Source: Tsukamurella sp. M9C | GTDB taxonomy: Bacteria > Actinomycetota > Actinomycetes > Mycobacteriales > Mycobacteriaceae | DNA length: 64,000 nt | Assembly: GCF_020169415.1 (NCBI RefSeq) | Contig: NZ_JAIULG010000011.1 | Span: 1-64,000, forward strand | Direction: 5' to 3' | Part shown: positions 1 through 64,000 of the stretch, piece by piece | Position numbering within the stretch: position 1 is the stretch's first letter | How the letters are laid out: every line of letters begins with the position of its first letter | Translations under genes and position numbers: made by a program | Notes under the pieces: model-generated | Databases searched by the model: none | What the model was told of the DNA's origin: nothing | Seen by the model: the letters and a program-made list of their open reading frames with translations, nothing else

Positions 1-665
1 CCCCCACGCAGACCCCCGCCCCGAAGTCGGTCGCACCGGGTGATCGCATCGACATCCTGCAGCGCTCCCTGGGCGGCGGCCGGTTCGAGTCGCTGCAGTG
101 CACCATGGGGTTCGCGGTGACCGCGCCGGACGGCGAGCGGCTCGGCGTGACCGCGGGGCACTGCGGCGCGCCGCAGCAGCCGGTCGGCGTGAAGAAGTGG
201 ATCGTCGGCGAGGTCGTGCAGTCGAAGTCCCCCGAGGTCAAGGAGGACCCGAACCGTCCCGGGCACTACTCCCCCGTCGACCCGTTCGGGCCCGACTGGG
301 CGACGTTCCGGCTGACCGATCCGCAGGTGAAGCTCCTCGCGTCGGCGCCCGGAATGGCACCGCGGTCGGTGGGCACGGCGCGCGTCGGGGACCCGGTGTG
401 CCAGCTGGGCTCGGTGAACGGTCGCCGTTGCGGCAAGGTGACGAAGGTCCTGGGTGACTGGGTCGTCGCCGACATCGTGACCACGCAGGGCGACAGCGGC
501 GGGCCGCTCATCCGGACGTCGGACAACGCCGCGATCGGCATCATCACCGACGCCGTCACGCTGACCGACCGCGACTCCGGCAAGGTCACGCAGCGACTCA
601 CGCAGTACTACTCGCTGAACGCGGCGCTCCGCGCGGCGGGCGGCGCGCGACTCGCGACCAACTGA
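1..665 (+). CDS. secreted chymotrypsin-fold serine protease, C-terminal part
   Basis: Partial gene: the frame is open from the left edge, so the start and any signal peptide lie outside the window. The visible 220 residues hold an S1-type catalytic triad: His in TAGHCG, Asp in PDWATFRL and the nucleophile Ser in GDSGGPL. Two Cys pairs (Cys before TMGF with GHCG; VCQ with RRCG) suggest disulfides and therefore export, as in streptogrisin-like peptidases of actinobacteria. The likely role is hydrolysis of extracellular protein. The substrate cannot be read. An Ala/Arg-rich tail ends the protein 40 bases before the next gene. Confidence 0.85.
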   Translation, partial: PTQTPAPKSVAPGDRIDILQRSLGGGRFESLQCTMGFAVTAPDGERLGVTAGHCGAPQQPVGVKKWIVGEVVQSKSPEVKEDPNRPGHYSPVDPFGPDWATFRLTDPQVKLLASAPGMAPRSVGTARVGDPVCQLGSVNGRRCGKVTKVLGDWVVADIVTTQGDSGGPLIRTSDNAAIGIITDAVTLTDRDSGKVTQRLTQYYSLNAALRAAGGARLATN

Positions 666-693
666 TCGGGGCCCGGTGGCGGGCCGCGTTCAC

Positions 694-699
694 TACACT
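694..699 (+). promoter_or_regulatory. -10 element TACACT of a leaderless promoter
   Basis: TACACT lies exactly six bases before the ATG at 706, so transcription should start at or beside the start codon. This fixes the start of the DUF385 gene at 706 rather than at upstream in-frame ATG 676. Confidence 0.55.
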
Positions 700-705
700 G
701 CCGCC

Positions 706-1185
706 ATGACCGTCGTGGACGACCTCAAGTCGCGTTTCCTGCAGCTCGGGCGACACCGTGCGGTGTCCCGCATGGTCCGGGCCACCGTCCCGCTCGACAA
801 GGCGGTGACCCGGATCAGTCGCGGCTCGGTGCACCTCATCCCCGAGGCGCTGCTCCCCCAGCTCACGTTGACCACGGTGGGGCGGCGCAGCGGCGTCGCG
901 CGCGCGGTCCCGCTGCTGTACGTGCGCGACGGCGAGGACTTCGTGGTGATCGCCTCCAACTTCGGGCAGAAGCACCACCCCGCGTGGTCGTTCAACCTGG
1001 AGGCGACGCCGGACGCCGAGGTGCTCCTGGGCACGCGCCGCATCCCGGTGCGGGCGCGCCGTGTCTCCGAGTCGGACCGGAAGCGCCTGTGGCCCAGCAT
1101 CGTCGCCGTCTGGCCCGCCTACGACGACTACATCGAGTGGGCCGGCGGCCGGACGATCAAGCTGTTCCGGCTCACGCCTCGCTGA
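706..1185 (+). CDS. nitroreductase/deazaflavin-dependent oxidoreductase family (DUF385)
   Basis: 159 residues with the DUF385 split-barrel pattern: TLTTVGRRSG (about residues 55-64), the strand PLLYVRDGEDFVVIASNFG and then HHPAWSFNLEATPDAEV. This family includes the F420-dependent Ddn and related proteins of mycobacteria, which bind deazaflavin or fatty acids. The family is clear from the sequence; the substrate is unknown. The start is chosen from the leaderless -10 element at 694. The stop overlaps the convergent PH-domain gene by 14 bases, tail to tail. Confidence 0.8.
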   Translation: MTVVDDLKSRFLQLGRHRAVSRMVRATVPLDKAVTRISRGSVHLIPEALLPQLTLTTVGRRSGVARAVPLLYVRDGEDFVVIASNFGQKHHPAWSFNLEATPDAEVLLGTRRIPVRARRVSESDRKRLWPSIVAVWPAYDDYIEWAGGRTIKLFRLTPR

Positions 1186-2689
1186 CGAGGAAGCCGGTCA
1201 CGATCTCGGGGTGGACGGTGCGCGCGACCTGCGCCGCGCGCTCGGGCGTCACGTCGACGGCGCCGAACGCACCGGCCGCGGTGGCGACGGTCAGGGTCGC
1301 GACGCCCGCGCGCCGCTGGAAGAACGTCTCCCGGGTGACGAACCCGGTCACCCCGTCGAACTCGAGCGCGGTGCGCGTGCGTGCGACGGTGCCCGCACCG
1401 AGGACCACGGCGTCGCCGGTGATGACGGTGCCGAGGTTGGCGTAGCGCAGGCGCGCGAGCGCCACCGACAGGATCGCCACGAGGACCGCCCCGGCGAGGG
1501 GCAGCGCCTTCCACGCGCCGGGCGCGACGACGCCGAGCGCCACCAGCACGACGATCGGCACGAACGCGCCCAGCACCGCGCGGGTGTAGCGGCGACGCAG
1601 GGCCACCGGCCCGTGCGCCTCCAGACGCGTCTCGATGACACCGGGGCGCCCCAGGATCTCGTCGGCCACCTGCACGGCCTCGGCGCGCGGCGCGGGCGGC
1701 AGCAGCGTGGGATTGCGATCCGTGCCCGTGGCGATCGCGCGCAACTTCGCGCCGCCCGGCAGACGCATGAGGACGGGCTCGTGCAGCTGCACGCCGCGCA
1801 CCCGCTTGCGCTCGATCGTCGCCGCCACCGTCGAGATCAGGCCGCGGCTGGTGTGCAGCGCACCGTCGGCCCGGCGGACCAGGCGGAAGCCCCAGAAGGC
1901 GAGCACGTAGGCCAGCACCGAGACCAGGATCGACACCATGATCACGAGCACCACGGCGGCCGGGATCACCACGGCCGCACCGAGGTCGAGGATCCTCGCC
2001 AACCAGGACTCGGCGAGCTCGGAGCCGCGCTCGCGCAGGCCCGCCTCGTCGACGATGCGGAAGCCGATGCCGGCGCCCGCCGCGACGACGGCGAAGCCCG
2101 TCAGCGAGAACGGGGCGAACCGGATCCACTCCGGCCGCAGGCGGGCGAGCTCCTCCTCGGGAGCGTTCGGCTGGGGCGCCACCACTGCCCCGTCCTCGCC
2201 GGGCGTCTCCGTGGCCGACGGTGCCGCGGTGCGGCGCAGGAGGTCCCGCCCGAGCTGCTCCGCGACCTCGGCGGGGATCGGATCGAGGACGAGCGCGGAC
2301 TCCTTACCGCCGACGCCGGTACCGACCACCACCTTGCGCAGCTTCAGCGCGCGCTCGATGGGTCCGGCGGTGACGTCGACGCTGCGGATCCGGTCGCGGC
2401 GGGCGGTCGCGGAGACCTTGCGCACCAGGCCGTGCCGCAGCTCCAACTGATCGTCGGTGACCCGCCAGCGAGTGGTGAGCCAGGGCAGCAGGCCGACCAG
2501 CACGCTGATGGCGACGCCGGCGATCACGAAGAACACCGGGCCGGCGGCGCGGCCGAGGAAGAAGACGCCGATGAGGGCGGGGATGAGGGACGGGACCGCC
2601 TTGATCACGCGGGTGCCGATGCCCCACGGCGAGAGCCGGTTCCAGCCGTCGTCGACGGCCGGTGCGATCACCTGGTCAGGTCGCGTCAT
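1172..2689 (-). CDS. bacterial PH-domain (DUF304) membrane protein, YdbT-like
   Basis: 505 residues. Two transmembrane hairpins near the N terminus (residues about 25-65) and in the middle (about 185-270) separate bPH2/DUF304 segments of the type WRVTDDQLELRHGL followed by RDRIRSVDVTAGPIER. A third such segment (VTRETFFQRRAGVATLTV) closes the protein. Paired DUF304 proteins of this kind (YdbS/YdbT of Bacillus) are membrane proteins of uncertain role, some linked to resistance to peptides. The ATG overlaps the end of the upstream PH gene by 14 bases, indicating translational coupling. Confidence 0.8.
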   Translation of the reverse strand: MTRPDQVIAPAVDDGWNRLSPWGIGTRVIKAVPSLIPALIGVFFLGRAAGPVFFVIAGVAISVLVGLLPWLTTRWRVTDDQLELRHGLVRKVSATARRDRIRSVDVTAGPIERALKLRKVVVGTGVGGKESALVLDPIPAEVAEQLGRDLLRRTAAPSATETPGEDGAVVAPQPNAPEEELARLRPEWIRFAPFSLTGFAVVAAGAGIGFRIVDEAGLRERGSELAESWLARILDLGAAVVIPAAVVLVIMVSILVSVLAYVLAFWGFRLVRRADGALHTSRGLISTVAATIERKRVRGVQLHEPVLMRLPGGAKLRAIATGTDRNPTLLPPAPRAEAVQVADEILGRPGVIETRLEAHGPVALRRRYTRAVLGAFVPIVVLVALGVVAPGAWKALPLAGAVLVAILSVALARLRYANLGTVITGDAVVLGAGTVARTRTALEFDGVTGFVTRETFFQRRAGVATLTVATAAGAFGAVDVTPERAAQVARTVHPEIVTGFLVSEA

Positions 2690-3270: not shown

Positions 3271-4440
3271 ATGACCACACATCCCGATGAGCTGGCGGGC
3301 CTGACCGGCCTGTTCAACGACCAGGAGCGCGCGATCGCCGATTCCGTCCGCGCGCTGACCGCCCGCGAGGTGGAGCCGTACGTCGCCGACTGGTTCGAGC
3401 GCGGCGAACTCGACGACCCGCGCGGCCTCATGCGGAAGCTCGGCGCGCTCGGCCTGCTGGGCATGCACCTCGACGGATACGGCTGCGCCGGAACGACCGC
3501 CACCGAGTACGGCGTGGCCTGCCTCGAGCTGGAGGCCTGCGACTCGGGCCTGCGTTCCATGGTCTCCGTGCAGGGATCGCTGGCGATGTATGCGATCTGG
3601 AAGTGGGCGAGCGAGGAGGAGAAGCAGCGCTGGCTGCCCGGCATGGCCGCCGGCGAGCTCATCGGCTGCTTCGGGCTGACCGAGCCGGACCACGGTTCCG
3701 ACCCCGCGAACATGCGCACCCGGGCGCGCCGCGACGGCGGCGACTGGATCCTCGACGGCCGGAAGATGTGGATCACCAACGGCTCCCTCGCCGACGTCGC
3801 CGTGATCTGGGCGCAGACCGACGAGGGCGTCCGCGGCTTCGCCGTCCCCACCGACACCGCGGGCTTCGCCGCGAACACCATCGAGCACAAGATGTCGCTG
3901 CGCGCGTCGGTGACCGCCGAGCTGGTGCTCGACGGTGTGCGCGTCCCCGACTCCGCCGCCTTCCCCGAGGTCCGCGGCCTGCGCGGCCCGCTGTCATGCC
4001 TGAGCGAGGCGCGGTACGGCATCGTCTGGGGCGCAATGGGTGCCGCTCGGACCGCACTGGAATGCGCGCAGCGATATTCGGTGGAGCGCGAGCAGTTCGG
4101 CAGGCCGATCGGCGGCTTCCAGCTGACCCAGCAGAAGCTCGCCGACATGACGCTGGAGTACACGAAGGGCGTGCTGCTGGCGGTGCACCTGGGCCGCCTC
4201 AAGGACGCCGGGGCACTGCGACCCGAGCAGGTGTCCCTGGGCAAGCTGAACAACGTGCGCGAGGCGATCGACATCTGCCGCACCGCCCGCACGATCCTGG
4301 GCGCGAACGGCATCTCGCTCGAGTACCCGGTGATCCGGCACGCGAACAACCTGGAGAGCGTGCTGACGTACGAGGGCACCGTCGAGATGCACACCCTGAT
4401 CCTGGGCCAGAAGCTCACCGGGCAGAACGCCTTCCAGTGA
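3271..4440 (+). CDS. acyl-CoA dehydrogenase, glutaryl-CoA dehydrogenase-like
   Basis: 389 residues, full length. It carries the glutaryl-CoA dehydrogenase signature GLTEPDHGSDP (about residue 138) with KMWITNGS for FAD binding, SMVSVQGSL near residue 98 at the position of the substrate-contacting arginine region, and the catalytic base Glu368 in LTYEGT. Such enzymes oxidise and decarboxylate glutaryl-CoA to crotonyl-CoA in lysine and tryptophan breakdown; a relaxed short-chain substrate is possible. A perfect AGGAGG four bases before ATG 3271 decides the start. It is divergent from the PH-domain operon. Confidence 0.85.
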   Translation: MTTHPDELAGLTGLFNDQERAIADSVRALTAREVEPYVADWFERGELDDPRGLMRKLGALGLLGMHLDGYGCAGTTATEYGVACLELEACDSGLRSMVSVQGSLAMYAIWKWASEEEKQRWLPGMAAGELIGCFGLTEPDHGSDPANMRTRARRDGGDWILDGRKMWITNGSLADVAVIWAQTDEGVRGFAVPTDTAGFAANTIEHKMSLRASVTAELVLDGVRVPDSAAFPEVRGLRGPLSCLSEARYGIVWGAMGAARTALECAQRYSVEREQFGRPIGGFQLTQQKLADMTLEYTKGVLLAVHLGRLKDAGALRPEQVSLGKLNNVREAIDICRTARTILGANGISLEYPVIRHANNLESVLTYEGTVEMHTLILGQKLTGQNAFQ

Positions 4441-6994: not shown

Positions 6995-8266
6995 CTCCTC
7001 CCCCGCCTCCGGGGCTCCGACGGTGACCGTCGGCGCACCGTCGGGCAGCGCGGCGGTGGCGGTGAAGCCGGGCCGGGCGGTGCCGACGAAGGCGCGCAGC
7101 CAGTCCCGGAGCACCGCCACGCGGTTGCCCATGCCGGCCAGGTAATACAGGTGCACGGCCAGCCAGCCGGCCCACGCGACGATGCCGGTGAGGCCGGGCA
7201 GCCCGAGCGGCGGCTGGATGACGGCGTGCGGGGTGTCGATCATCGCCATGCTGCCCTTGTCGAGGTAGCGGAAGTGCGTGCCGGGGCCCGTCTTCCCACG
7301 GATGATGTCCGCGGCGTGGCGACCCTGCTGCATGGCGACGGGGCTCTGCCCGGGAAGGCCGTTCAGGTTGGTCATGTCGCCGAGGGCGAAGACGTCGGCC
7401 CGGCCGCCGACCGTGAGATCGCGGTTGATGAGGAGGCGGCCGTTGCGATCGGTCTCGCAGCCGGTGGCCTCGGCGATCACGCCCGCGAGCGGGGTGGCCT
7501 TGACGCCCGCCGACCAGACCACGGTGCCCGCGGCGATCTCGCGCTCGGCGCCCGCCTTGTCCTTGACGGTGACGACGTCGTCCTCGATCGCGGTGACGAA
7601 CGTGCCGGTGTGCACCGTGACGCCCGCCTTCTCCAGCGCGGCGAGGGTGTAGCCCGAGAGGGTGCCGCCGTAGAAGGGCAGCACGTCGTCGGCGCCCTCG
7701 ACCAGGTGGATGCGGATCTCCGCGTCGTCGTGGAAGCGGCGCGCGAGCTCGGCGACCTGGCCCGCGACCTCGACGCCCGTGGCGCCGGCGCCGACCACGA
7801 CGACGGTGCGCGCGGCGATCTCGGCGGGTGCGTCGAAGGCGGCGCGCAGCCGAGTCCGGAGGTTCTCTGAGTCCTCGAGGGTCTTCAGGGCGAAGGTGCG
7901 GTCGGCCCACTCGTCGTGGCCGAAGTACGCCTGCGCGGCGCCCGCGGCGACGATGAGGTAGGTGTAGCCGATCTGCTCGATGCCGTCGGCGGTCGCGTAG
8001 GTGACCACCTTGCGCTCGGCGTCGACCTCGGTGACGTAGCCGGTCACGACGTCGACGGTGCGGCGCCGGCGCAGCACCTCCGCGATGGGCGGCGCGATGC
8101 GCTCGCCGACGGTGACGCCCGTGGCCACCTGGTAGAGCAGGGGCTGGAAGAGGTGGGTGCCGTTCGCCGAGATGAGGGTGGTCTCGATATTCGACTTGGC
8201 CAGCTGCTTCGCGGCGGCGAGGCCGCCGAATCCCGAGCCGATCACCACGACGTGGGTGCTGCGCAT
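6932..8266 (-). CDS. ndh: type II NADH dehydrogenase (NDH-2)
   Basis: 444 residues. Begins with the FAD-binding fold VVVIGSGFGGLAAAKQL and carries the NADH-binding fold VVVVGAGATGVEVAGQ near residue 165. The motif VFALGDMTNL (about 310) contacts FAD, and a hydrophobic C-terminal region (PGLTGIVAWAGWLAVHLYYL) anchors the protein to the membrane. It passes electrons from NADH to menaquinone without pumping protons. ATG 8266 is chosen for the GGAGGAG just upstream. The low-complexity C-terminal tail reads antisense into the L,D-transpeptidase gene. The divergent LysR gene may regulate it. Confidence 0.88.
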   Translation of the reverse strand: MRSTHVVVIGSGFGGLAAAKQLAKSNIETTLISANGTHLFQPLLYQVATGVTVGERIAPPIAEVLRRRRTVDVVTGYVTEVDAERKVVTYATADGIEQIGYTYLIVAAGAAQAYFGHDEWADRTFALKTLEDSENLRTRLRAAFDAPAEIAARTVVVVGAGATGVEVAGQVAELARRFHDDAEIRIHLVEGADDVLPFYGGTLSGYTLAALEKAGVTVHTGTFVTAIEDDVVTVKDKAGAEREIAAGTVVWSAGVKATPLAGVIAEATGCETDRNGRLLINRDLTVGGRADVFALGDMTNLNGLPGQSPVAMQQGRHAADIIRGKTGPGTHFRYLDKGSMAMIDTPHAVIQPPLGLPGLTGIVAWAGWLAVHLYYLAGMGNRVAVLRDWLRAFVGTARPGFTATAALPDGAPTVTVGAPEAGEELPGGLGVAGAPDGPRQVPVA

Positions 8267-8390: not shown

Positions 8391-9254
8391 ATGGAATTCC
8401 GGCAGCTCGAGTACCTCGTCGCGGTGGCCGATCACGGCGGCTTCTCGCGCGCGGCGAAGCAGTGCTTCGTCTCGCAGTCGGCGGTGAGCCACCAGATCGC
8501 GACCCTCGAGAAGGAGCTGGGCGCCGAGCTCTTCGAGCGGGCCGGGCGACGCGTCCGCCTCACCGACGCCGGCGAGTCCCTGCTCCCCCGCGCCCGCGAA
8601 CTGCTCCGGCAGCGGGACGAGGCGATCGACGCGGTGCGCCCGCGGCCGGACCGGATCCGGCTCGCGGCGAACATGTCGTTCGCCCGATCCGCGCTGGCCG
8701 CCGCTGCCGACGTGCGCGAGCGGCACCCGGGCGCGGAGATCGACTTCCTCATCAAGCCCTTCGCACAGCGCATCGCCGCGGTGAAGTCGGGCGAGGCCGA
8801 CCTCGCGCTCATCCGCGGCCGCCTGGACGAGCCCGGCCTCTACCTGGAGCCGCTGTGGGTGGACAACCCGCTCATCGCCTTCTCCACGCGGCATCCCCTC
8901 GCGGCCCTCGGCCGGGCACCGTCGACCACGGAGCTGGCGCAGTACCCCCTGCTCCTGCCGCCCCCGCACCAGCAGGTGCTGCTGCACCGGCTGGTAGACA
9001 AGGTCTTCACCGCCGACGGGCTGGAGGTGCGGCTCGGCCCCGAGATCCGCGACGACCACCCCGTCGCCTTCGAGCTGATCAACAACCCCGAGGGGTGGAC
9101 GCTGCTGTACGAGGACCCGCGCCAGCCCGGCATCGCGAGCCGGCCGGCGCCGGGCTTCACGCTCCCCGTATCCGCGGTGCTACGCACCGACGCCACCCCG
9201 AACCCGCTGGTCGCGGAGCTGCTGGTGGGGCTGTCGAACGGATACCGCCGGTAG
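8391..9254 (+). CDS. LysR-family transcriptional regulator
   Basis: 287 residues. A winged helix-turn-helix fills residues 1-60 (FRQLEYLVAVADHGGFSRAAKQ, then SQSAVSHQIATLEKELG), followed by a type 2 periplasmic-binding-like effector domain from about 88. It should bind the 7-base inverted repeat between it and ndh, and an unknown small ligand. ATG 8391 is six bases after TACAAT, a leaderless start. No other target is adjacent; the gene after it is a convergent hypothetical. Confidence 0.88.
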   Translation: MEFRQLEYLVAVADHGGFSRAAKQCFVSQSAVSHQIATLEKELGAELFERAGRRVRLTDAGESLLPRARELLRQRDEAIDAVRPRPDRIRLAANMSFARSALAAAADVRERHPGAEIDFLIKPFAQRIAAVKSGEADLALIRGRLDEPGLYLEPLWVDNPLIAFSTRHPLAALGRAPSTTELAQYPLLLPPPHQQVLLHRLVDKVFTADGLEVRLGPEIRDDHPVAFELINNPEGWTLLYEDPRQPGIASRPAPGFTLPVSAVLRTDATPNPLVAELLVGLSNGYRR

Positions 9255-11600: not shown

Positions 11601-11630
11601 GGGCACCGTCGGGATGTCCCGACGGTGCCC
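11601..11630 (-). terminator. terminator formed by an inverted pair of the iterated 9-mer
   Basis: GGGCACCGTCGGGA and TCCCGACGGTGCCC are perfectly complementary with a two-base loop, 15 bases after the carboxylase stop. Each arm contains the 9-mer GCACCGTCG that recurs through the window. There is no T run, as is common in high-GC actinobacteria. Confidence 0.65.
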
Positions 11631-11644: not shown

Positions 11645-14600
11645 CTACTGCGCGGCCTCGATCACGGAGATGATCTTCGGGCGCAGGTCGGCGGCGGCGA
11701 TGATCTCGTCGACCGAGCCGACCTCGACGGCGCGACGGATGCTGTGCACCCCGTCGAACTCGGAGGCGACCTCGCCCAGCTTCTCGGCGCGGACGGAGCC
11801 CCGCACCTCGTCGAGCTCGGCGAGCAGCGCGGCGCGCTCGGTGCCGGTGGCCTCGGCCACCTGCGCCTCGAGGTCCTTGACCCGCGCGTCGTTACCGGTG
11901 CGGGAGTTGACCTCGCCCGAGAACACCACCGCGGCGGCGGGAGCGCCGCCGAGCACCGAGGCGAAGGAGCCCTCGATGGCCAGCACCGTCATGTTCGGGT
12001 TCAGCTGCTTCGAGAACACCACGAACGCACCGCCGTGGTACCGCGAGATCACGCAGAACACGATCGGGCCCGAGAAGTTGACGATCGCGCGGCCGATCTC
12101 GGCGCCGTACTCCAGCTGGAGCTTGCGCAGCGACTCCGGCGAACCGTCGAAGCCCGAGAGGTTGGCGAGCACGACCAGCGGCCGGTTGTCGCTCGCCGCG
12201 TTGATCGCGCGGGCCGCCTTCTTCGACGACTGCGGGAACAGCGTGCCGGCGGTGTAGGTGTCCGGCCCGTCGGTCGCCGGGAAGCCCAGGCGCGGGACCG
12301 ACTTCGACTCGATGCCGAGCAGGCAGACCGGGATGCCGCCGATGTGCACGTCCTGCACGACCGCCGTCTCGGCGTCGGCCATGCCAGCCCAGCGCTCGAG
12401 CACCTCGTGGTCCTGGTCGGACAGCGCGCGCATCACGGTGCGGATGTCGAAGGGCTTCTTACGGTCCGGGTTCTTCTCCGCGGAGAAGATGTCGCCGACC
12501 GTCGTGAAGTCGCTGTCGGCCAGCACGTGCGGGTAGCTCGAGATGTCGCGATCGGACGGGTCCGTGGTCGCGGCACGACGCGGCGCCTGCTCGCCGGGGG
12601 CGATGTAGGTGTGCGCGTAGTGCTCCATCAGGATCGAGTGCGCGCCCATGAGGTCCGCCGCCCAGTACTGCGCCTGGCCGTTCGGGCCCATGATGCGGTC
12701 GTAGCCGCCGATGCCGAAGTTGTCCTCCGCCGAGACGCCGCCGGAGAAGTCCAGCGACTGCTTGCCGGTGAGCACCATCGCCGACTCCGGCGTCATGATC
12801 AGCACGCCCTTGGTGTGCATGAGCATCGTGGCCTCGGCGTTCCAGTACGGCTGCGCGCCCACGTTGATGCCGGCGGAGACGATGTTGATCTCGCCGCCCT
12901 GCTGGGTGAACTCGACGATCTTCTTCAGCGCCGCCGCGACCCAGTCCATGTTCTCGGTGCCCGAGTCCATGGAGATGCGGGCACCCGCGGAGAGCGCGTA
13001 CCACTCGATCGGCAGCTCCATCCGGTGCGCGAGGTCGATCGCCGCGCTGATCCGGCGGCACTCCGCCTCGGCGAGCGCGCCCAGCGACTTGGTCGGATCG
13101 CCCAGCAGCAGAACGCGCTTGACGCCCTCCGGGTACAGGTCCGTCGCCGTGGAGATGACGCCGACCACGATGCCCGCGGTGTTGCGGCCCTTCGGACGGT
13201 CCGTCGGCACCAGCACGTCGGCGATGTCACCCTCGGCGAGCTCGTACTCGACGAAATCGCCCAGCGCGGAGGTCAGCTCGTACGGGTAGACGGTGTTGCG
13301 GCTCGCGGCGCGCAGCACCTTCTGGCGGTAGCCGTCGATCGGCTCGACGGTGTCCTCGACCGGCTCACCGATGTGCAGGTCGGCACGACCCGTGGGGCTG
13401 AACGACACCCGCACCTCGGTCTTGACCAGCTCACCCGTCGCCGCGTCACGACGACGGCCGATGAGCAGCACCTCCTCGAGACCCGCGCCGACCGTCGTCG
13501 ACCCGATGTGCCCGGCGAGCGCCTCGAGCTCCGCATCGCTGAGGTCCACCGGCGGCCAGATGTACATGACGATCCGGTTGGTGGGCAGCCGCTTCGCGCT
13601 GGGGCGGGCGGCCTGTGCCCGGCGGATCGAGTCCACGCACGTGGCGAGGGCGATCTCAGCGGTCGGCAGGGCCAGCAGTCGGCCCTCGCCGTCGCGGACG
13701 GCGGCCAGGTCGCGGACCTGGGCGAAGGCGACCAGGCGGTCGTCGGCCGGGTTCTCCTTGGCCACCGCGCGGTACAGGTACACCTCCTCGTCGTCCGACG
13801 AGGTGAGACGCGTCAGGTCGAAGCGGCGCAGCCGCTCGAGCTGCATGCGCTGCGCGATGTACGGGTGCAGGCCGCGGATCAGGCGATCCTCGACGACCCC
13901 GTTGGTCGCCGCGCGGAAGGTGAAGTGGTGGTGCATGACCGCGCCGCCGCTGCCCGCGACGGTGATCGTCACGCGACGGACCTGCGCCGGCAGCGGGTGC
14001 GCCGACAGCACGCTGTCGAAGGCCGCCACCATCTCGTCCTGATCCTCGGGCTGCTGCTCCCAGCTGAGGTAGATGTCGGCGTCCACCGACGCCGCGCCCT
14101 CGGCCACCTGCGCGAGCCCGGCGACCGCGTCGCTGAGCCCGTCGTACGCCACGGCGGCGGAGGCGATCAGGGCACCGTCGCGCTCGGCGACGACCCACTC
14201 CGTGCCCGCGACGTCCTGCGTGCGGACCTCCGTGAGGCCCTTGTTGCCGTAGTAGCGGCGGGTGAGGACCTCGAGCATGACGGCGTTGTCGGTGGGGTGA
14301 TCCCCCGCCAGGCGCTCGCCCAGGAGCAGGACCAGCGGCTCGGTGCTGCGCACCATCTCCGCGACACGGTCGGAACGGTCTGCGGCCGTGGGGTTCTGAT
14401 CGAGGTGCGTCAGGTGGGCCCGGACCGCCGAGTACACGCCCTCGCGGTTGCCGCGCAGCAGCGGCTGACCGAACCAGGCGAAGACCACGCCGCGGGCGAG
14501 ATCGGCGATCACCGGGTAGCGCGACTGCGTCGCGTCCATGAGCCGCTCGAGCACGGCGCGCGCGTCGCCGCCCTCCTCGACCGACGGTGCCGGCTCGCGC

Positions 14601-26858: not shown

Positions 26859-26984
26859 GAATCTCCTCGGATCAGCTCGCTGCGCGCCGCTATGACGGCA
26901 CGTCCGCGGCAGGCCCGCGGAAAACCCGTATTCCATGAGACCACAGGATTCGCACTACCTCTGACGTGCAGATATGTAACCAGT

Positions 26985-45701: not shown

Positions 45702-46670
<969 letters not shown>

Positions 46671-47411: not shown

Positions 47412-48020
47412 CTATTCCGGCTCGCGGTCGAGCATCACCGAGACCAGCACGTCGAGCATCGCCGAGAGCCAGTGGTAGACGTCCACGTGCCCGGCCCGGG
47501 CCGGGTCCTCGGAGGACGGCCCGTCGGGCAGGTCGGCGGTGATGCCCAGCAGCGTGCCGAGCGCGAGCCGCAGGTCGTTGATGCAGGTCAGCCAGTCCTG
47601 CGCCTCGGACTCGGTGAGGGAGACGGTGCCGGCCCGCTCGGGCAGGGTGGCGAGCACCGTCTGCGCGGCATCGCGCTTGGCGTCGATCACCTCGGGCTCG
47701 TTGAGGGAGCGGAGCGCGCCGTTGAGGTCGCGGGCCAGCTCGCCCGACGGTGCCTCGGTCGCGCCCGGCGCGTTGGCGTCGGGCCGGTAGAAGTCGGGCA
47801 GCAAGCGCTGCAGCACGGTCTCCTGGGGCGGCTCGGCGTGGCCGGTCCGCAACCCGGTCAGCTCGGCGAGGTCGTCGTGCGGTGCCGAGTCCTCCCGCTC
47901 GTCGAACAACTCGACCAGGGATCCGACGAGGGACCGGACGAGGCCGACCTCCTCCGGATCCATCTTCGAGACGAAGCGGACATCGCCGCGCACGCCCCGC
48001 TTGACCTGCCAGTTACGCAC
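47412..48020 (-). CDS. DUF2017 protein (Rv1332-like)
   Basis: 202 residues, helical and acidic, with DVRFVSKMDPEEVGLVRSLV at the N terminus and AQDWLTCINDLRLALGTLLG in the C-terminal half. This matches the DUF2017 protein always found between clpS and mec in this order. Function unknown; the constant placement next to ClpS hints at a role in regulated proteolysis. GTG 48020 follows the clpS stop directly. Confidence 0.85.
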   Translation of the reverse strand: MRNWQVKRGVRGDVRFVSKMDPEEVGLVRSLVGSLVELFDEREDSAPHDDLAELTGLRTGHAEPPQETVLQRLLPDFYRPDANAPGATEAPSGELARDLNGALRSLNEPEVIDAKRDAAQTVLATLPERAGTVSLTESEAQDWLTCINDLRLALGTLLGITADLPDGPSSEDPARAGHVDVYHWLSAMLDVLVSVMLDREPE

Positions 48021-52559: not shown

Positions 52560-52932
52560 ACCCGGACATCCGCTGCTCGAGGCCGTGCGGGACCTCGTGG
52601 ACCGGATCGACGGCACCGTCGTGACAGTGGCCGAGTTGCGGCCGTCGGACGTGCCGCTGCGCTGGGAGGGCCGCATCGTGGGTGGCGTGCGCCTCTCCGC
52701 CTCGGACCCGGCGGAACCCCTCGCCGGCGACCTGGACACCCTCCTCGAGCTGCTCGCGGAGGAACTGGGAGCACCCCTGAACGAGTTGGACCGCAAGGAC
52801 AAGCAGCGAGCCGTTCGCCTGCTCGAGGAGCGCGGCGCGTTCACCTTCCGCAAGTCCACCGAGACGGTGGCCGAGGCGCTCGGAGTCACCCGGTTCACGG
52901 TGTACAACTACCTCAACCGCCTGCGCGCCTGA
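52552..52932 (+). CDS. YheO/DauR-type helix-turn-helix regulator
   Basis: 126 residues. The N-terminal half is a small alpha/beta domain (TVVTVAELRPSDVPLRWEGR). The C-terminal 45 residues (DRKDKQRAVRLLEERGAFTF, then STETVAEALGVTRFTVYNYL) are the HTH_22 domain of YheO/DauR regulators. It lies 118 bases before uraD in the same direction, and a palindrome TCAACA-AAC-TGTTGA in between is a likely target, so a role in purine catabolism control is inferred. Confidence 0.7.
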   Translation: MTEPGHPLLEAVRDLVDRIDGTVVTVAELRPSDVPLRWEGRIVGGVRLSASDPAEPLAGDLDTLLELLAEELGAPLNELDRKDKQRAVRLLEERGAFTFRKSTETVAEALGVTRFTVYNYLNRLRA

Positions 52933-53058: not shown

Positions 53059-53572
53059 CGAAGACTTCAACTCGGCGCCTGAGGCCGATATCCGGGCGAC
53101 TCTACTCGCGTGTTGCGATGTGCGCTCCTGGAGCGATGCGGTCATCGACGGACGGCCCTACGCCGATGCCTCCGACGCCCTCCGGGTGGCCGGCACCGCG
53201 GCCCTGGCGTTCACCCCCGCCGACGTGGATCGCGCACTCGCCTCCCACCCGCGGATCGGCGAGCGCGCCGCGGGCGCCTCCACCGAGGCCGCGTGGTCCC
53301 GCAGGGAGCAGTCGGGCGTCGCCACCGACGCGCAGACGCAGGCCGCCCTCCTCGCCGGCAACGGCGCCTACGAGGAGCGCTTCGACCGCGTCTTCCTGAT
53401 CAACGCCGCGGGACTGGACGCGACGACGGTGCTCGCCGAGCTGCACCGGCGGCTCGAGAACGCGCCGGACGCCGAGGCCGCCGAAGTCGCCCGCGAGCTC
53501 CGCGGGATCGCGCTGCGCCGCCTCGCCCGGGTCCTCGAACTGGAAGACGAACTCGCAGAGAGGCAGTCATGA
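53051..53572 (+). CDS. uraD: OHCU decarboxylase
   Basis: 173 residues. The signature SHPRIGERA with catalytic His66 and FNSAPEADIRATLLACCDV at the N terminus identify 2-oxo-4-hydroxy-4-carboxy-5-ureidoimidazoline decarboxylase, the last enzyme that turns urate into S-allantoin. ATG 53051 is preferred over ATG 52994 because 52994 lies between the -35 and -10 of its own promoter; AAGG lies eight bases before it. It overlaps uraH by four bases. Confidence 0.9.
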   Translation: MDLEDFNSAPEADIRATLLACCDVRSWSDAVIDGRPYADASDALRVAGTAALAFTPADVDRALASHPRIGERAAGASTEAAWSRREQSGVATDAQTQAALLAGNGAYEERFDRVFLINAAGLDATTVLAELHRRLENAPDAEAAEVARELRGIALRRLARVLELEDELAERQS

Positions 53573-53916
53573 GCACGGTCACCACCCACGTCCTCGACAC
53601 CGCGCGCGGTGTCCCCGCAGCCGGGGTCCCGATCCGGATGGACCGGGTCGGGCCGGACGGCACCGTCGAATCCGTGGCACAGGGCGTCACGGACGACGAC
53701 GGCCGGATCCGCGACCTCGGCCCGGACGACCTGGCCGCCGGCGTCTACCGCCTGACCTTCGACACCGCGACGTACTCCACGGCCACGGGGCAGGAGAACT
53801 TCTTCCCCGAGGTCGCCATCACCTTCCGCCTGATCGCGGTCGACGGCGCCGTTCCCCACCACCACGTCCCGCTCCTCCTCAGCCCGTTCCACTACTCCAC
53901 CTACAAAGGAAGCTGA
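53569..53916 (+). CDS. uraH: 5-hydroxyisourate hydrolase
   Basis: 115 residues, transthyretin-related. His7 in TTHVLDTARG, Arg in GRIRDL and the C-terminal tetrapeptide YKGS (canonical YRGS; here Lys replaces Arg) form the active site. It opens hydroxyisourate to OHCU, the substrate of UraD. ATGA overlap with uraD; five bases separate it from uricase. Confidence 0.93.
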   Translation: MSTVTTHVLDTARGVPAAGVPIRMDRVGPDGTVESVAQGVTDDDGRIRDLGPDDLAAGVYRLTFDTATYSTATGQENFFPEVAITFRLIAVDGAVPHHHVPLLLSPFHYSTYKGS

Positions 53917-53921
53917 CCACC

Positions 53922-54827
53922 ATGGCAATCCACTTGGGCCCCAACCAGTACGGCAAGGCGGAGAACCGCGTGGTGCGGATCTACCGCGACACCGCCCGGC
54001 ACACGATCCGTGACCTCAACGTGTCCTCGGCGCTGCGCGGCGATTTCACCGACGCCCACATCAGCGGCGACCAGGCGGCGGTGCTGCCGACCGACACCCA
54101 GAAGAACACCTCGTTCGCCTTCGCCAAGGAGAAGGGCATCGGCGCGATCGAGGACTACGCCCTCACGCTGGGCGGTCATTTCATCGACTCCACCCCCAAG
54201 GCCGACGGCGCTCGCATCGAGGTGCACGAGTACCCCTGGGACCGGATCCAGGTCGACGGTGCCGGCCACGACCACGCCTTCGTCCGCTCCGGCGGCGGAG
54301 TACGGTCCACCGTCGTCAACGTCGACGGCCGCGGCGCCGACCGCCGCGCGCACGTGGTGTCCGGCATCCACGACCTGACGCTGCTCAAGTCCACCGGCTC
54401 GGAGTTCCACGGCTTCCTCAAGGACAAGTACACGACGCTGCAGGAGACCGACGACCGGATCCTCGCCACGTCGCTCGTCGCCAAGTGGCGCTACGACCAC
54501 ACGGACGTGGACTGGGACAAGTCCTTCGACTCGATCCGCGCGATCATGCTCCAGCGGTTCGCCGAGATCCACAGCAAGGCACTGCAGCAGACCTTGTACG
54601 GCATGGGCCAGTCCGTGCTCGAGCAGCACCCCGAGGTCGCGGAGATCAAGTTCTCGGCGCCGAACAAGCACCACTTCCTGGTGGACCTCGCCCCCTTCGG
54701 CGTGGAGAACCCCGGCGAGGTGTTCATCGCGGCCGACCGCCCCTACGGCCTGATCGAGGCGAGCGTCGTGCGCGACGACGCGTCCGACGCCGGCTCGGCG
54801 TGGCACGGCGTGCCCGGATTCTGCTAG
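53922..54827 (+). CDS. pucL: urate oxidase (uricase)
   Basis: 301 residues, cofactor-free uricase. Lys in YGKAENRVV and Thr in LPTDTQKNT form the catalytic dyad; SGIHDLTLLKSTGSEFHGF and NKHHFLVDL are family motifs. It oxidises urate to 5-hydroxyisourate with release of peroxide. It is the third gene of the uraD-uraH-uricase-permease operon. Confidence 0.95.
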   Translation: MAIHLGPNQYGKAENRVVRIYRDTARHTIRDLNVSSALRGDFTDAHISGDQAAVLPTDTQKNTSFAFAKEKGIGAIEDYALTLGGHFIDSTPKADGARIEVHEYPWDRIQVDGAGHDHAFVRSGGGVRSTVVNVDGRGADRRAHVVSGIHDLTLLKSTGSEFHGFLKDKYTTLQETDDRILATSLVAKWRYDHTDVDWDKSFDSIRAIMLQRFAEIHSKALQQTLYGMGQSVLEQHPEVAEIKFSAPNKHHFLVDLAPFGVENPGEVFIAADRPYGLIEASVVRDDASDAGSAWHGVPGFC

Positions 54828-60058: not shown

Positions 60059-61189
60059 ATGACGACGGTGCTGCTCTCGCCCGACAAGTTCAAGGGCTCC
60101 CTGTCCGCGGCGGGCGTCGCGGACGCCCTCGCCCGCGGTATCGCGGACGTCGCGCCGGACTGGGTGTGCGTCCGCGCCCCCATCGCCGACGGCGGGGACG
60201 GCACCGTCGACGCCGCCGTGGCCGCGGGGTGGGAGCGGGTCGCGGTGGAGACCACCGGCCCGACCGGGGTCCCGCACACGACGTCGTACGCCCGCGGCGG
60301 CCCGACGGCCGTGGTCGAGCTCGCCTCGGCCGTCGGCCTGGAGCTGCTGCCCGGCCGCGAGCCGGACGCGCTCGGCGCCACCACCTTCGGCCTGGGCACG
60401 GTAATCCGGCACGCGCTCGAACACGGGGCGCAGCACATCGTCCTCGGCCTCGGCGGCAGCGCCTCGACCGACGGCGGCGCCGGCATGCTGCAGGCGCTCG
60501 GCGTGTCGATCACAGACCGCGCGGGCGAGCCCGTGCGGCCGGGCGGCACCGCGCTGCTGCAGGCCGCGCGCGTCGACCTCGCCGGCCTGCTCCCCGAGGC
60601 GCGCGGCGCGCGGTTCACGCTCGCGTGCGACGTCGACAATCCGCTGCTCGGACCCGACGGCGCGGCCGCGGTCTACGGCCCGCAGAAGGGGGCGACCGCC
60701 GCGCAGGTCACCCTGCTCGACGGCGCCCTGCGCACCTGGGCCGACGTGGTCGCGGAGGCGACGGGCGCCGACCTGCGGGAGACGCCGGGCGCGGGGGCCG
60801 CGGGCGGCACGGGCTTCGGCGCGATGGCGGTTCTCGGCGCCGAGGCGCGGCCGGGCGTCGACATCGTGCTGGAGCTCGCCGACTTCGCGGACAAGGTCCG
60901 GGCGGCGGACCTCGTGATCACGGGCGAGGGGTCACTCGACGCACAATCGCTGCACGGCAAGGCGCCGGTCGGCGTCGCCTCCGCGGCCCGCGCGGCCGGG
61001 GTGCCGGTCATCGCGGTGGCGGGGCGCAGCGCGCTCACCGCGGAGCAGATCCACGCGGCGGGCTTCCGGCGCGCGATGGCGCTGTCCGAGATCGAGCCCG
61101 ATCCCGCGCGCTCGATGGCGAACGCCGCCGAGCTGCTGCGCCGCATCGGCCGGTCCATCGCCGCGGGCGCCGGCGGCCGGCTGGGCTGA
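60059..61189 (+). CDS. glxK: glycerate kinase (GarK/GlxK type)
   Basis: 376 residues. LLSPDKFKGSLSA at the start, PIADGGDGTVDA, GLGGSASTDGGAGMLQAL and VITGEGSLDAQSLHGKAP are the class II glycerate kinase motifs. It phosphorylates glycerate to phosphoglycerate for glycolysis, closing the glyoxylate route. GGAGG precedes ATG 60059. Last gene of the operon. Confidence 0.93.
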   Translation: MTTVLLSPDKFKGSLSAAGVADALARGIADVAPDWVCVRAPIADGGDGTVDAAVAAGWERVAVETTGPTGVPHTTSYARGGPTAVVELASAVGLELLPGREPDALGATTFGLGTVIRHALEHGAQHIVLGLGGSASTDGGAGMLQALGVSITDRAGEPVRPGGTALLQAARVDLAGLLPEARGARFTLACDVDNPLLGPDGAAAVYGPQKGATAAQVTLLDGALRTWADVVAEATGADLRETPGAGAAGGTGFGAMAVLGAEARPGVDIVLELADFADKVRAADLVITGEGSLDAQSLHGKAPVGVASAARAAGVPVIAVAGRSALTAEQIHAAGFRRAMALSEIEPDPARSMANAAELLRRIGRSIAAGAGGRLG

Positions 61190-61221: not shown

Positions 61222-62400
61222 TCAGCGGGGGCCGTTGCGGCGCAGCCAGGTGGCGATCTGACGCTCGCCGCGCACCGTCGCCCAGCGCCGAGCGGCGGGC
61301 GAGAACCGGGCCGCGACCTGGACGGGCGCGTGGCTCGCCCACGCGACGGGCACGGCCCACGGCAGCTCGGCGGGGAGCCCCAGGTCGCGCAGGCCCTGCC
61401 GGCCGGCGAAGACGCCCTCGAGGCTGCCCAGGTAACGCTGATAGAAGCCCCGCCGCAGCCCCTGCGCGACCGGGTACCGGTGCCGGCCCCAGTTGCCGTA
61501 CAGCGCGCGGCCGAGGACGGCGGAGTCCGCGTCGGGTCCGGGCGCGTACTGGCCGATCTGCACCATGCGGCGCCGACCCTCCCCCTCGGTCGCGGGCAGG
61601 ACGTGCTCGTCGAGGCCGAGAAGCCAGCCGACGTAGCGCCACAGCGCCATCACGTCGCGGCCCTCGTCCGCGGAGACGGGCATGCCCAGCGCGCGCAGAC
61701 CGAGCAGGAAGGTCGTGGAGAAGAGGCCGAGCGTGCCCAGTTGGTCGGACTGGTTGATGGGCACGCCCCACTGCGCCCGGTCCCAGTCGTCGCGGCGCAG
61801 CAGGGTCGTGTTGGCGAGGCCGTGGATCACCCGGACCTTCACGGCCGACCGCCAGGCGAGCCCGTGCGGTCGCACGTCGCCGCCGATGATCTCCGACCAC
61901 CACTGCGTGGTCTCGTGGATGCGGGCGTCCACCCCGTCGACCATGCCGCCCGTCGCGACGAGCTGGCGCGTGGTCGCGGAGGTCGTGTACCCGGTCATGA
62001 GCGACGCCGTCGCGAGGACGTCGAGCCCGAGCGAACCGGATCGCCGGCAGACGGCGGCGCCGCGCTCGCAGGCGTCGAAGTCCACCCAGGCGGGCGTCGC
62101 GGCGGCGCCGACCGCGTCCAGCAGCTCCTGGAGCGCGGGGTTCTCCGTGGCGCCCGACGCCAGCGCCGCGTCGAGGTCGCGCATCGAGTAGGCCCGGTCG
62201 TCGATCATCGCGCGGCCGAGCCGGTTGCCGAGCTCGTCGCCGCGGTCCACCGCTTCGCCCGCCCAGGCGATCTCCTCCGCCGTGAACGGGCGGCGATCCT
62301 TCTGCAGGAGCCGGAGGGCGCGCACACTGCCGGCGGCCCACTCGGGGTCGCGGTCGAAACGTGCGGGGGTATCGACGGTGCGGGGGGCTGCGAGGGTCAT
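61222..62400 (-). CDS. MpaB-family (DUF2236) oxygenase
   Basis: 392 residues. The family pattern is seen in RVIHGLANTTLLRRDDWD, GVPINQSDQLGTLGLFSTTF and LWRYVGWLLGLDEHVLPAT; the His/Arg pair in the first motif fits the haem site of MpaB and latex-clearing proteins. Oxidative cleavage or demethylation of a hydrophobic substrate is the family-level guess. ATG 62400 is six bases after TACGCT (62407-62412). A TetR gene lies directly upstream on the same strand. Confidence 0.75.
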   Translation of the reverse strand: MTLAAPRTVDTPARFDRDPEWAAGSVRALRLLQKDRRPFTAEEIAWAGEAVDRGDELGNRLGRAMIDDRAYSMRDLDAALASGATENPALQELLDAVGAAATPAWVDFDACERGAAVCRRSGSLGLDVLATASLMTGYTTSATTRQLVATGGMVDGVDARIHETTQWWSEIIGGDVRPHGLAWRSAVKVRVIHGLANTTLLRRDDWDRAQWGVPINQSDQLGTLGLFSTTFLLGLRALGMPVSADEGRDVMALWRYVGWLLGLDEHVLPATEGEGRRRMVQIGQYAPGPDADSAVLGRALYGNWGRHRYPVAQGLRRGFYQRYLGSLEGVFAGRQGLRDLGLPAELPWAVPVAWASHAPVQVAARFSPAARRWATVRGERQIATWLRRNGPR

Positions 62401-62406
62401 GGCCCG

Positions 62407-62439: not shown

Positions 62440-62465
62440 CAATCTCGTAACGGTCTCCCCGCCGC

Positions 62466-63128
62466 CTAGGAGGACGCCGCCCGCAGGCGCCTGAGCACCG
62501 CGGACAGCTCTCGGTTGCTGAGGATCCCCGCCACCATGATCTCCTCGACCGTCGTGGGCGAGGCGTCGATCCGGCCGGCACTCGCCGCGATCGCCAGGTG
62601 CATCCCGCCCACCGCGATCATCCGCGCCGACAGCTGCGCATCCTCGTGCTCCGGCGGGTCGTCGAGGATCTCCTCGGCCTGGGCCGCCATGGCTCCCGCG
62701 AGCAGGTCGATCAGCGCCTCCCGCCGCGCCCGGAGGCCGGGATGCACGTCCGCGCCGACGAGCAGGGCGGACCGGCGCGGATCGGCACTGATCGCGCCGA
62801 GCGAGCTGCGCACGCCCGCCCGCACCTTCCGCTCGACGACGTCGGGCGCCTCCGGCGCGACCGCCGCGATCGCGGTGGCGACATCACCCATGAGCTCCGC
62901 CGCCATCACGTCGAAGGCAGCGGTGAGCACGTCGTCCGGCGAGTCGAAGGCCTCGCGGAAGTAGCGCGCGTGCAGGCCCGCCTCGGCGCACAGCGAACGC
63001 GCGCTCACCGCAGCGACGCCGTCGCGGGCGACCACGGTGAGCGCGGCGTCGAGGAACCGCGCGCGCCGCTCCTCGCGGCGCGCCTCGGCGCTCGCGCCGC
63101 TGTAGCGGCGCCCCTCGGTCTCGGTCAT
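62466..63128 (-). CDS. TetR/AcrR-family regulator
   Basis: 220 residues. A basic N terminus (EARREERRARFLDAAL) leads to the helix-turn-helix VAAVSARSLCAEAGLHARYF, with a long helical ligand domain behind it. It should bind the palindrome at 62421-62439 and control the oxygenase gene downstream. ATG 63128 is six bases after TACGCT (63135-63140), the same hexamer as at the oxygenase promoter. Confidence 0.85.
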   Translation of the reverse strand: MTETEGRRYSGASAEARREERRARFLDAALTVVARDGVAAVSARSLCAEAGLHARYFREAFDSPDDVLTAAFDVMAAELMGDVATAIAAVAPEAPDVVERKVRAGVRSSLGAISADPRRSALLVGADVHPGLRARREALIDLLAGAMAAQAEEILDDPPEHEDAQLSARMIAVGGMHLAIAASAGRIDASPTTVEEIMVAGILSNRELSAVLRRLRAASS

Positions 63129-63160
63129 CGGGCCAGCGTATCGCCCGCGACGCCCGCGGA

Positions 63161-63520
63161 TCAGGCGGAGGCGGCGAGGATCTCGCGCGGGTCGAAGGTG
63201 ACGTTCACCGCGGTGATCAGGCCGTCCTCGACGCGGGTCCAGTTCGCGACCGCGGTCGCGGGCGCGCCGCCCATGCCCAGGTCGAACCAGGTGATCACAT
63301 CGCGATCGTCCGCGAGACGGGCGCGGACCTCGAGCGAGTCGGTGGCCTGCGCCATGCCGCCGAGCCCCTGGAGGAACTCGTCGGGCCCGTGCGCGACGCC
63401 GAAGACCCCGGTGAAGACGCAGTCGGGTGCCAGGTACGGGCGGAGCGGGGCGAAGTCCTTGGCCTCCCAGCAGCGGAAGTAGGTCTCGGCGATCCGGCGG
63501 GGCGAGCTGTTCTCGGTCAT
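63161..63520 (-). CDS. SnoaL-like (NTF2-fold) protein
   Basis: 119 residues with the small cone-shaped NTF2 fold: AETYFRCWEAKDFAPLRPYL, APDCVFTGVFGVAHGPDEFL and TFDPREIL. Members bind or isomerise small hydrophobic molecules; no catalytic residue can be assigned here. It precedes the TetR gene on the same strand by 32 bases and is divergent from a LysR gene. Confidence 0.75.
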   Translation of the reverse strand: MTENSSPRRIAETYFRCWEAKDFAPLRPYLAPDCVFTGVFGVAHGPDEFLQGLGGMAQATDSLEVRARLADDRDVITWFDLGMGGAPATAVANWTRVEDGLITAVNVTFDPREILAASA

Positions 63521-63590
63521 GACTCCACTCTGCGGCCGACGCAGTCAGAAGTCCAACAGCTGTCTCTGATTCGAACTATCATCATCAGTG

Positions 63591-64000
63591 ATGGAACTGC
63601 ACCAGCTCCGCTACCTCGTCGCCGTCGCCGACCGCGGCTCGTTCACGGCCGCCGCCGACGCACTGCACGTCGCCCAGTCCGGCGTCTCCGCGCAGGTCGC
63701 CAAGCTCGAACGCGAACTGGGCCACCGCCTGCTCGAACGCGGGGCGCGCACCGTCGGCCTCACGTCCGAGGGGGCGGAGCTGCTGCCGCACGCCCGGGCC
63801 GTGCTCGCCGCCGTGGACGCCGTGCGGACCGTCGCCGACGAGCTGACCGGCGTCGTCCGCGGCCACGTGCGGCTCGGGACCGTCATCGGGTGCACGATCC
63901 CGGGCTACCTCACGGGCTTCGCGGCGTTCCGCGTCGCGCACCCCGCGGTCACCGTCGACGTCGTGGAGGGCGATTCGGACGACCTCGTCGCCGACCTCGT
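63591..64000 (+). CDS. LysR-family regulator, N-terminal part
   Basis: 136 codons are visible before the right edge. The helix-turn-helix (ELHQLRYLVAVADRGSFTAA, AQSGVSAQVAKLEREL) is complete, followed by the start of the effector domain (GHVRLGTVIGCTIPGYLTGF). TATCAT (63577-63582) lies eight bases before ATG. It is divergent from the SnoaL-like gene, its probable target. Confidence 0.88.
   Translation, partial: MELHQLRYLVAVADRGSFTAAADALHVAQSGVSAQVAKLERELGHRLLERGARTVGLTSEGAELLPHARAVLAAVDAVRTVADELTGVVRGHVRLGTVIGCTIPGYLTGFAAFRVAHPAVTVDVVEGDSDDLVADL

Follow-up and report, generated by a model that had tools for sequence, protein, structure and literature searches.

A nine-base word abundant throughout Tsukamurella as a candidate DNA uptake sequence

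Introduction

Why should a single nine-base word recur so often, on both strands, in the DNA of one bacterial genus? The question is raised by a 64-kb stretch of Tsukamurella sp. M9C (bases 1-64000 of contig 13 of genome G000; hereafter, the window), in which the nonamer GCACCGTCG is found 44 times. An earlier note on this DNA had reported about 40 copies on both strands, a figure that the present count bears out, and had left open a role in DNA uptake, nucleoid-protein binding or methylation, while pointing to the likeness with uptake sequences. Here, we report that the excess of the word is real, genus-wide and larger than that note stated. In our judgment, the chances are even that the word, SSGCACCGTCGRMC in its extended form, serves Tsukamurella in the manner of a DNA uptake sequence (DUS), which would be read in transformation by a Flp/Tad pilus.

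Results and Discussion

Abundance of the word in the window and the genome

The 44 copies in the window, 23 on the plus strand and 21 on the minus strand (Table 1), compare with a mean of 3.84 and a maximum of 10 in 100 dinucleotide shuffles. Forty positions had been listed in the earlier note, those on the minus strand being given for the core of the word. All 21 plus-strand positions and 17 of the 19 minus-strand positions were exact, two had slipped by 1 base (49527 for 49526) and by 10 bases (32272 for 32262), and four copies, marked in Table 1, were missed. On the 5′ side of the word, 27 copies have G, 14 have C and 3 have A, in agreement with the earlier statement that it is nearly always G or C.

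Genome G000, which comprises 4,731,977 bases in 110 contigs (4.73 Mb), contains 3,203 copies of GCACCGTCG (1,515 + 1,688), or ~1 per 1.5 kb, whereas the word read backwards, as a control, occurs 64 times (33 + 31). In 650 kb of this genome, GCACCGTCG or an overlapping form ranked first at each length from 8 to 12 in its excess over an order-4 Markov model. The 411 copies observed in the 650 kb also far exceed the 38, 52, 78, 122 and 207 expected from Markov models of orders 1-5, respectively. The orders proposed in the earlier note for this check, 6 and 7, expect 333 and 387, near the observed number; however, such models are built from the 7- and 8-letter parts of GCACCGTCG and absorb the signal, so that we judge the test to be circular and uninformative at these orders. 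We therefore relied on synonymous shuffling and on comparison with relatives. Shuffled versions of the word, which the earlier note had suggested counting, do not share its excess: the scrambled GCACGGTCG has 22 copies in the same 650 kb, and 1,500 random permutations of GCACCGTCG have 24.9 on average and 240 at the top.

Along genome G000, the density of the word climbs with GC content (Spearman 0.28 across 5-kb segments), from 0.75 words per segment below 66% GC (4 segments) to 4.05 above 73% GC (21 segments).

Constraint on the DNA

Genes were called by a simple codon-usage script instead of a standard gene finder, giving coding fractions of 0.77 in 644 kb of genome G000 and 0.875 in a 1.49-Mb set of 73 stretches from word-rich Tsukamurella. 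An overlap of ~11.5 kb is counted twice in the latter set and in the count of inverted pairs given below.

In the 644 kb, 324 of the 411 copies are genic, compared with 55.7 (standard deviation, 6.4; maximum of 60 shuffles, 70) when synonymous codons were shuffled within genes. All six classes of orientation and phase exceed the shuffled expectation (for example, 50 vs 1.2), and the genic copies are equally divided between sense (160) and antisense (164). The density is 0.584/kb outside the called genes vs 0.654/kb inside. In the 1.49-Mb set, 808 genic copies were counted against 146.8 after synonymous shuffling, a 5.5-fold enrichment that each of the 27 single-letter changes to GCACCGTCG cuts to 2.8-fold or less. 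Relative to shuffled copies, the word prefers SS on its 5′ side and RMC on its 3′ side, which extends it to SSGCACCGTCGRMC. The same preference is seen in 90 non-genic copies, and copies outside genes occur at 0.48/kb in this set. The constrained word consists of a strict 9-bp core with ~5 weaker positions, and is non-palindromic.

The excess belongs to the DNA, not to the protein, as the earlier note had argued from the varied codon phases in which the word falls. A peptide repeat or codon usage as its source is rejected by the synonymous shuffling and the phase classes, and a mobile repeat or a family of repetitive extragenic palindromic (REP) elements by the absence of a strong flank preference beyond ~5 bases.

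These data bear also on the possibility that the excess has no function and merely follows from codon-pair preference or mutational context. Sense 1 and antisense 2, the phases seen most often, read GC ACC GTC G and GAC GGT GC, which we take to be mostly favoured codons, and the background in other genera already exceeds the backwards-read control, as such a by-product might produce. However, every class of phase and orientation is in excess, the non-genic copies carry the same flanks, the excess is limited to one genus in the samples searched, and the sites are kept 2.3 times as often as matched words. The by-product explanation is largely refuted, and we consider it very improbable.

Distribution and conservation across Tsukamurella

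Fourteen of the 16 Tsukamurella genomes carry 1,911-4,002 copies of GCACCGTCG, or 0.425-0.817 per kb (genome sizes rounded), whereas the two word-poor genomes, G006 and G007, carry 827 and 1,247 (0.165 and 0.265 per kb). The earlier note had proposed a comparison with related genera; in all 45 such genomes, drawn from the rest of the family and order, the word has 51-713 copies. In a sample of the phylum (n = 396), the 10-mer GGCACCGTCG occurs 1,812 times in the present genome and at most 382 times in any of the other 395. In the samples searched, the excess of the word is thus shared within Tsukamurella and confined to it. No overrepresented word of their own stood out in sister genera, in 20-40 kb from each of three genomes, which is too little to exclude one.

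Among the genomes compared, the two word-poor ones diverge the most. ComEC of genome G000 is 79-91% identical to that of nine named Tsukamurella, the next best match being a Mycobacterium protein at 39%, which places genome G000 in Tsukamurella. By the same protein, G006 and G007 stand at 53-55%, against at least 78.7% for the nine named loci. Both are most divergent also by ProA and DegV, and NadD does not set G007 apart. The assembly of G006 is 93% complete and is divided into 890 contigs.

Retention of the word between species was followed in an alignment of the comEC neighbourhood of the nine named loci and genome G000. The word was retained at 566 of 900 ordered pair-sites (63%), compared with 2,364 of 8,743 (27%) for composition-matched 9-mers of the same strong/weak pattern; these pair-sites are not independent, since they derive from 43 distinct sites, 16 of them in single species. 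Wherever two species had 20 pair-sites or more, which was so for 21 species pairs, retention was higher for the word. It stands 35th in retention in a set of 465 frequent 9-mers (0.56; median, 0.33). The word is well kept, yet it is not the most conserved 9-mer.

Competence and Flp/Tad pilus genes

Tsukamurella encodes a predicted competence machinery, with ComEC, ComEA, DprA and, in the word-rich genomes, Tad genes. The ComEC family was found in 60 of 61 relatives and in all 16 Tsukamurella genomes (in G006 as two contig pieces), and comEC is adjoined in genome G000 by a gene for ComEA, with SLBB and HHH_3 domains. DprA is likewise present in all 16, so that both families were rejected as the gene that discriminates word-rich from word-poor genomes. 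Three genomes have second DprA-family domains (G003:C1:1921398-1921937, G014:C1:4267998-4268609, and one in G007).

Each word-rich genome has one PF00437 ATPase, of which the copy in G003 is typed as TadA family by NCBIfam TIGR03819. In genome G000, the ATPase is accompanied by two T2SSF proteins, whose position marks them as TadB and TadC, and further by a pilin-like protein of 56 amino acids that matches Pfam DUF4244, a small unassigned protein and one with a Tad domain. For the neighbours that were not scored, and for an upstream TadZ, we presume the tad names from other actinobacteria.

Within the genus, all 14 word-rich genomes have TadB, whereas G006 and G007 lack it. In G007, the match to the ATPase (tadA) contains a stop, TadB is missing genome-wide, a search of 73 kb yielded no TadC, and the pilin and minor pilins are partial matches, with element genes in between. 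The remains of this decayed operon span G007:C23:23632-35520 and include recombinase-like fragments. Between tadA and the pilin remnant lie a DNase gene of the NucA/NucB type and, at 26100-26705, the second DprA-like domain of this genome.

Elements inserted in tadA

In five of the 14 word-rich genomes (G003, G004, G008, G010 and G013), a gap of 15-43 kb separates the genes for the ATPase and TadB, whereas they are adjacent in the other nine. Related elements interrupt tadA at an identical site in these five. At the left end, the final bases of tadA are followed by TTATCTGT, which all five genomes share with G007 (the junction was read in G003, G004, G008 and G010). At their right ends, the elements share 81-98% identity over as much as ~250 bp and terminate in GATAA-n-CARGTGGT. 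Near its right end, the G003 element (Table 1) has consecutive genes for two tyrosine recombinases and for a DUF6262 protein, an architecture that we take to recall TnpA/B/C of Tn554. The first of these recombinases has a relative of 89.7% on a T. tyrosinosolvens plasmid.

In the five elements, 161 kb in total without 2 kb of the one in G010, 19 words were counted, 1.7 times the order-2 expectation. For other genera of the family (121 kb) this ratio is 1.6, so that the elements lack the excess; it is 7.8 in genome G000, 6.8 in G003 and 3.7 in G007. Phage TIN2 (50 kb) contains 3 words vs 1.0 expected. A BLAST search of a triple word against phages returned no match and is uninformative.

Strand polarity, spacing and the rival roles

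The main rival of an uptake sequence takes the word, in its CGACGGTGC reading, for the Chi site recognised by a Tsukamurella RecBCD, which would switch this nuclease-helicase to recombination in break repair and protect chromosomal DNA. The likeness is that of a genome-wide overrepresented word in RecC-bearing genomes, without an excess in the integrated elements, and the GGTG of CGACGGTGC is also present in Chi of E. coli. The cognate enzyme is at hand: RecC (PF04257) was found in all 16 Tsukamurella genomes vs 2 of the 15 other genomes examined. With dnaA of G003 and G014 as the reference for the replication strands, CGACGGTGC is slightly more frequent on the leading side, 288 vs 238 (P = 0.033; 39 windows of 20 kb), an excess seen in G014 (181 to 135, P = 0.011) and hardly in G003 (107 to 103). 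However, this skew of 55% lies within the spread of similar words, 22% of the 9-mers with the same G-C excess being at least as skewed, whereas Chi of E. coli is co-oriented to ~75%. RecC is also present where the word is not abundant, in G006, G016 (318 copies) and G039 (374 copies), whose counts are at background, and in G007, whose count is intermediate. In addition, with 9 strict and ~5 weaker base pairs, the constrained word is longer, and its density higher, than for the Chi sites known to us. We therefore regard a Chi role as unlikely; were it correct, an actinobacterial Chi would have been found from sequence alone.

The same counts bear on a strand-polar translocase signal of the FtsK-orienting polar sequence (KOPS) type, or a terminus-specific site. 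Many short copies would suit such a signal. In contrast, the replication-strand polarity is not strong, and no rise toward the terminus, nor any other gradient along the chromosome, was evident by eye in the 39 windows of the two genomes. This role is scarcely tenable. The earlier note had set the word apart from Chi and KOPS by its balanced orientation, and strand polarity, which is no more than that of background 9-mers, rejects both on this count.

A third possibility is that an abundant, sequence-specific chromosome-binding protein, acting in the nucleoid, in segregation or in repair, recognises the word, or that the word is one like HIP1 (highly iterated palindrome 1), methylation being one form of this explanation. 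The absence of an evident gradient in G003 and G014 is consistent with it, as are the conservation of sites between species and the spacing of the copies, which is random (coefficient of variation, 1.03 vs 0.99 under uniform placement), so that regular spacing is rejected. A plasmid of 99.8 kb (G009:C2) carries the word at a chromosome-like density (44 words, 0.441/kb, 6.8-fold), which also fits this explanation. Conversely, a chromosome-binding factor alone leaves the match with tadB unexplained, and we know of no chromosome-binding protein with ~3,000 strict 9-bp sites. HIP1 of cyanobacteria is likewise a short word overrepresented across a clade, but it is an octameric palindrome, as far as the part of the source available to us describes it, whereas GCACCGTCG differs from its reverse complement CGACGGTGC. 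We judge a chromosome-binding role to be rather unlikely.

Inverted pairs of the word

Two copies of the word form a perfect inverted repeat in the window (Table 1), between the convergent called genes 10189-11331 (+) and 11648-17098 (−), and this pair is putatively terminator-like. The earlier note had read it as a terminator of the kind that uptake sequences form; the inverted repeat itself stands, and such close pairs are few overall. The count of close inverted pairs is 18, with one pair entered twice, vs a mean of ~8 in placement shuffles, each class of them stays inside the range of those shuffles, and convergent pairs with a spacer of 0-14 number 0-27 per genome. These numbers do not amount to the frequent inverted pairs of a DUS, and they are too few for a general terminator role of the word, which is rejected. 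Terminator-forming inverted pairs are common in Neisseria; we do not judge them to be defining for uptake sequences.

The word as an uptake sequence

The explanation consistent with most of the evidence is an uptake sequence; it stands, in our view, at even chances, with a Chi site and another chromosome-binding factor remaining beside it. Among the three roles named in the earlier note, it is the best supported, even though pairs that could form hairpins are a small minority. Under this reading, competent cells would pull in DNA by the Flp/Tad pilus, as in Micrococcus luteus, and a putative surface DNA receptor, pilus-borne or ComEA-like, would prefer DNA that carries the word. Preferred uptake together with homologous recombination would then drive the word up and keep it, and the genus would exchange mainly its own DNA.

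The word has thousands of copies of one ~9-12 bp sequence far above expectation, in both orientations, in genic and non-genic DNA, not driven by protein, and with a strict core and a weaker flank preference. These features are those of DUS and of the uptake signal sequences (USS) of Pasteurellaceae, and we class the word as one that may work like them, without filing it as a member. The limitation of the excess to one genus in the samples searched, the retention of sites between species, the lack of an excess in the five tadA elements, the encoded competence genes and the match with tadB also speak for this explanation. The USS of Pasteurellaceae also occur in thousands of copies with weaker flanks, and their sequence is unrelated to the Tsukamurella word. 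They share with it a 9-bp core, according to the accessible part of PMC1626085, and they differ in phylum and machinery. The DUS of Neisseriaceae are described, in the available portion of PMC3630211, as a short word with ~1,900 copies of a 10-mer in N. gonorrhoeae and N. meningitidis, which lies both within genes and between them, has built up in the core genome and forms dialects that track phylogeny. Their receptor is ComP in the parts of PMC3630211 and PMC3868556 that were available, whereas the receptor in Tsukamurella is putative. Tsukamurella differs further in being a high-GC actinobacterium with a single Tad-type pilus ATPase and rare hairpin pairs.

Precedent for the pilus comes from two other bacteria. 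In Micrococcus luteus, which like Tsukamurella has actinobacterial ComEA/ComEC and tad genes, the flp/tad genes are required for transformation, according to the available text of PMC4322843; unlike the present case, that text does not contain the terms 'uptake sequence', 'uptake signal' or 'sequence-specific'. Tad pili are described as essential for DNA uptake in Liberibacter in the accessible part of PMC8513845.

Several observations weigh against an uptake sequence. The match between tadB and the word is confounded with divergence and amounts at best to one or two evolutionary contrasts, because the word-poor G006 and G007 are the most divergent genomes compared and G006 is fragmentary. A PF00437 ATPase, not typed as Tad, was found without the word in all 25 other genera sampled. 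The excess of the word on the G009 plasmid and in the Tsukamurella phage TPA2 (17 words in positions 1-50000, 5.0-fold over the order-2 expectation) means that mobile DNA is not uniformly depleted. Genomes with an interrupted tadA have the word at 0.591/kb (n = 5), close to the 0.616/kb of those with an uninterrupted gene (n = 9); if the word is an uptake sequence, the insertions are therefore recent or reversible. To these are added the scarcity of hairpin pairs, the random spacing, and RecC in all 16 Tsukamurella genomes, which keeps the Chi explanation alive. Finally, no literature joining Tsukamurella with natural transformation was found, nor anything in print on this word, in a search that covered few subscription journals and preprints.

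To our knowledge, uptake sequences have been described solely in two proteobacterial families. More tentatively, at somewhat less than an even chance, the word could be the first DUS outside Neisseriaceae and Pasteurellaceae, a self-tag for Flp/Tad competence in a mycolic-acid actinobacterium, with the elements countering this filter by their repeated insertion at one site of tadA, the gene of the pilus motor. Insertions into comK, comYC, comFA and comM are described as blocking transformation in PMC4774983, in the available text of which 'tad' does not appear. If the word is an uptake sequence, transformation that favours self DNA would have evolved separately in Mycobacteriales, by means of another pilus, and Tsukamurella is predicted to be naturally transformable. 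The 14 word-rich and two word-poor genomes would then offer a handle on the receptor, and the recurrent tadA insertions would belong to the conflict between mobile elements and transformation.

Coordinates of the features

Table 1. Copies of the word in the 64-kb window, counted as exact matches on both strands, with the inverted pair and the G003 element. Positions are those of the window unless a contig is given.
Feature	Position	Strand	Remark
GCACCGTCG copy	1384..1392	-	exact match
GCACCGTCG copy	1860..1868	+	exact match
GCACCGTCG copy	2216..2224	-	exact match
GCACCGTCG copy	4376..4384	+	exact match; absent from earlier list
GCACCGTCG copy	7035..7043	+	exact match
GCACCGTCG copy	7801..7809	-	exact match
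GCACCGTCG copy	8053..8061	-	exact match
GCACCGTCG copy	8916..8924	+	exact match
GCACCGTCG copy	11603..11611	+	exact match
GCACCGTCG copy	11620..11628	-	exact match
GCACCGTCG copy	14172..14180	+	exact match
GCACCGTCG copy	14582..14590	-	exact match
GCACCGTCG copy	21022..21030	+	exact match
GCACCGTCG copy	21298..21306	+	exact match
GCACCGTCG copy	21498..21506	-	exact match
GCACCGTCG copy	21650..21658	+	exact match
GCACCGTCG copy	23641..23649	+	exact match
GCACCGTCG copy	25151..25159	-	exact match
GCACCGTCG copy	26449..26457	+	exact match
GCACCGTCG copy	29852..29860	-	exact match
GCACCGTCG copy	30369..30377	+	exact match; absent from earlier list
GCACCGTCG copy	32261..32269	-	exact match
GCACCGTCG copy	34231..34239	+	exact match
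GCACCGTCG copy	34549..34557	-	exact match
GCACCGTCG copy	34943..34951	+	exact match
GCACCGTCG copy	36500..36508	+	exact match
GCACCGTCG copy	37581..37589	+	exact match
GCACCGTCG copy	38731..38739	-	exact match
GCACCGTCG copy	39545..39553	-	exact match
GCACCGTCG copy	39996..40004	-	exact match
GCACCGTCG copy	41593..41601	+	exact match
GCACCGTCG copy	46579..46587	+	exact match
GCACCGTCG copy	47745..47753	-	exact match
GCACCGTCG copy	49525..49533	-	exact match
GCACCGTCG copy	51408..51416	-	exact match
GCACCGTCG copy	52613..52621	+	exact match
GCACCGTCG copy	53424..53432	-	exact match; absent from earlier list
GCACCGTCG copy	53660..53668	+	exact match
GCACCGTCG copy	54254..54262	-	exact match
GCACCGTCG copy	60063..60071	-	exact match; absent from earlier list
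GCACCGTCG copy	60201..60209	+	exact match
GCACCGTCG copy	61272..61280	+	exact match
GCACCGTCG copy	62373..62381	-	exact match
GCACCGTCG copy	63748..63756	+	exact match
Inverted word pair	11601..11630	.	perfect 14-bp arms 11601-11614 and 11617-11630, 2-base loop
G003 tadA element	G003:C1:1974851-1990275		

An open frame called in the window at 17565-26936 (minus strand) is 3,124 amino acids long, with neighbours of 1,817 and 1,405 amino acids on the same strand.

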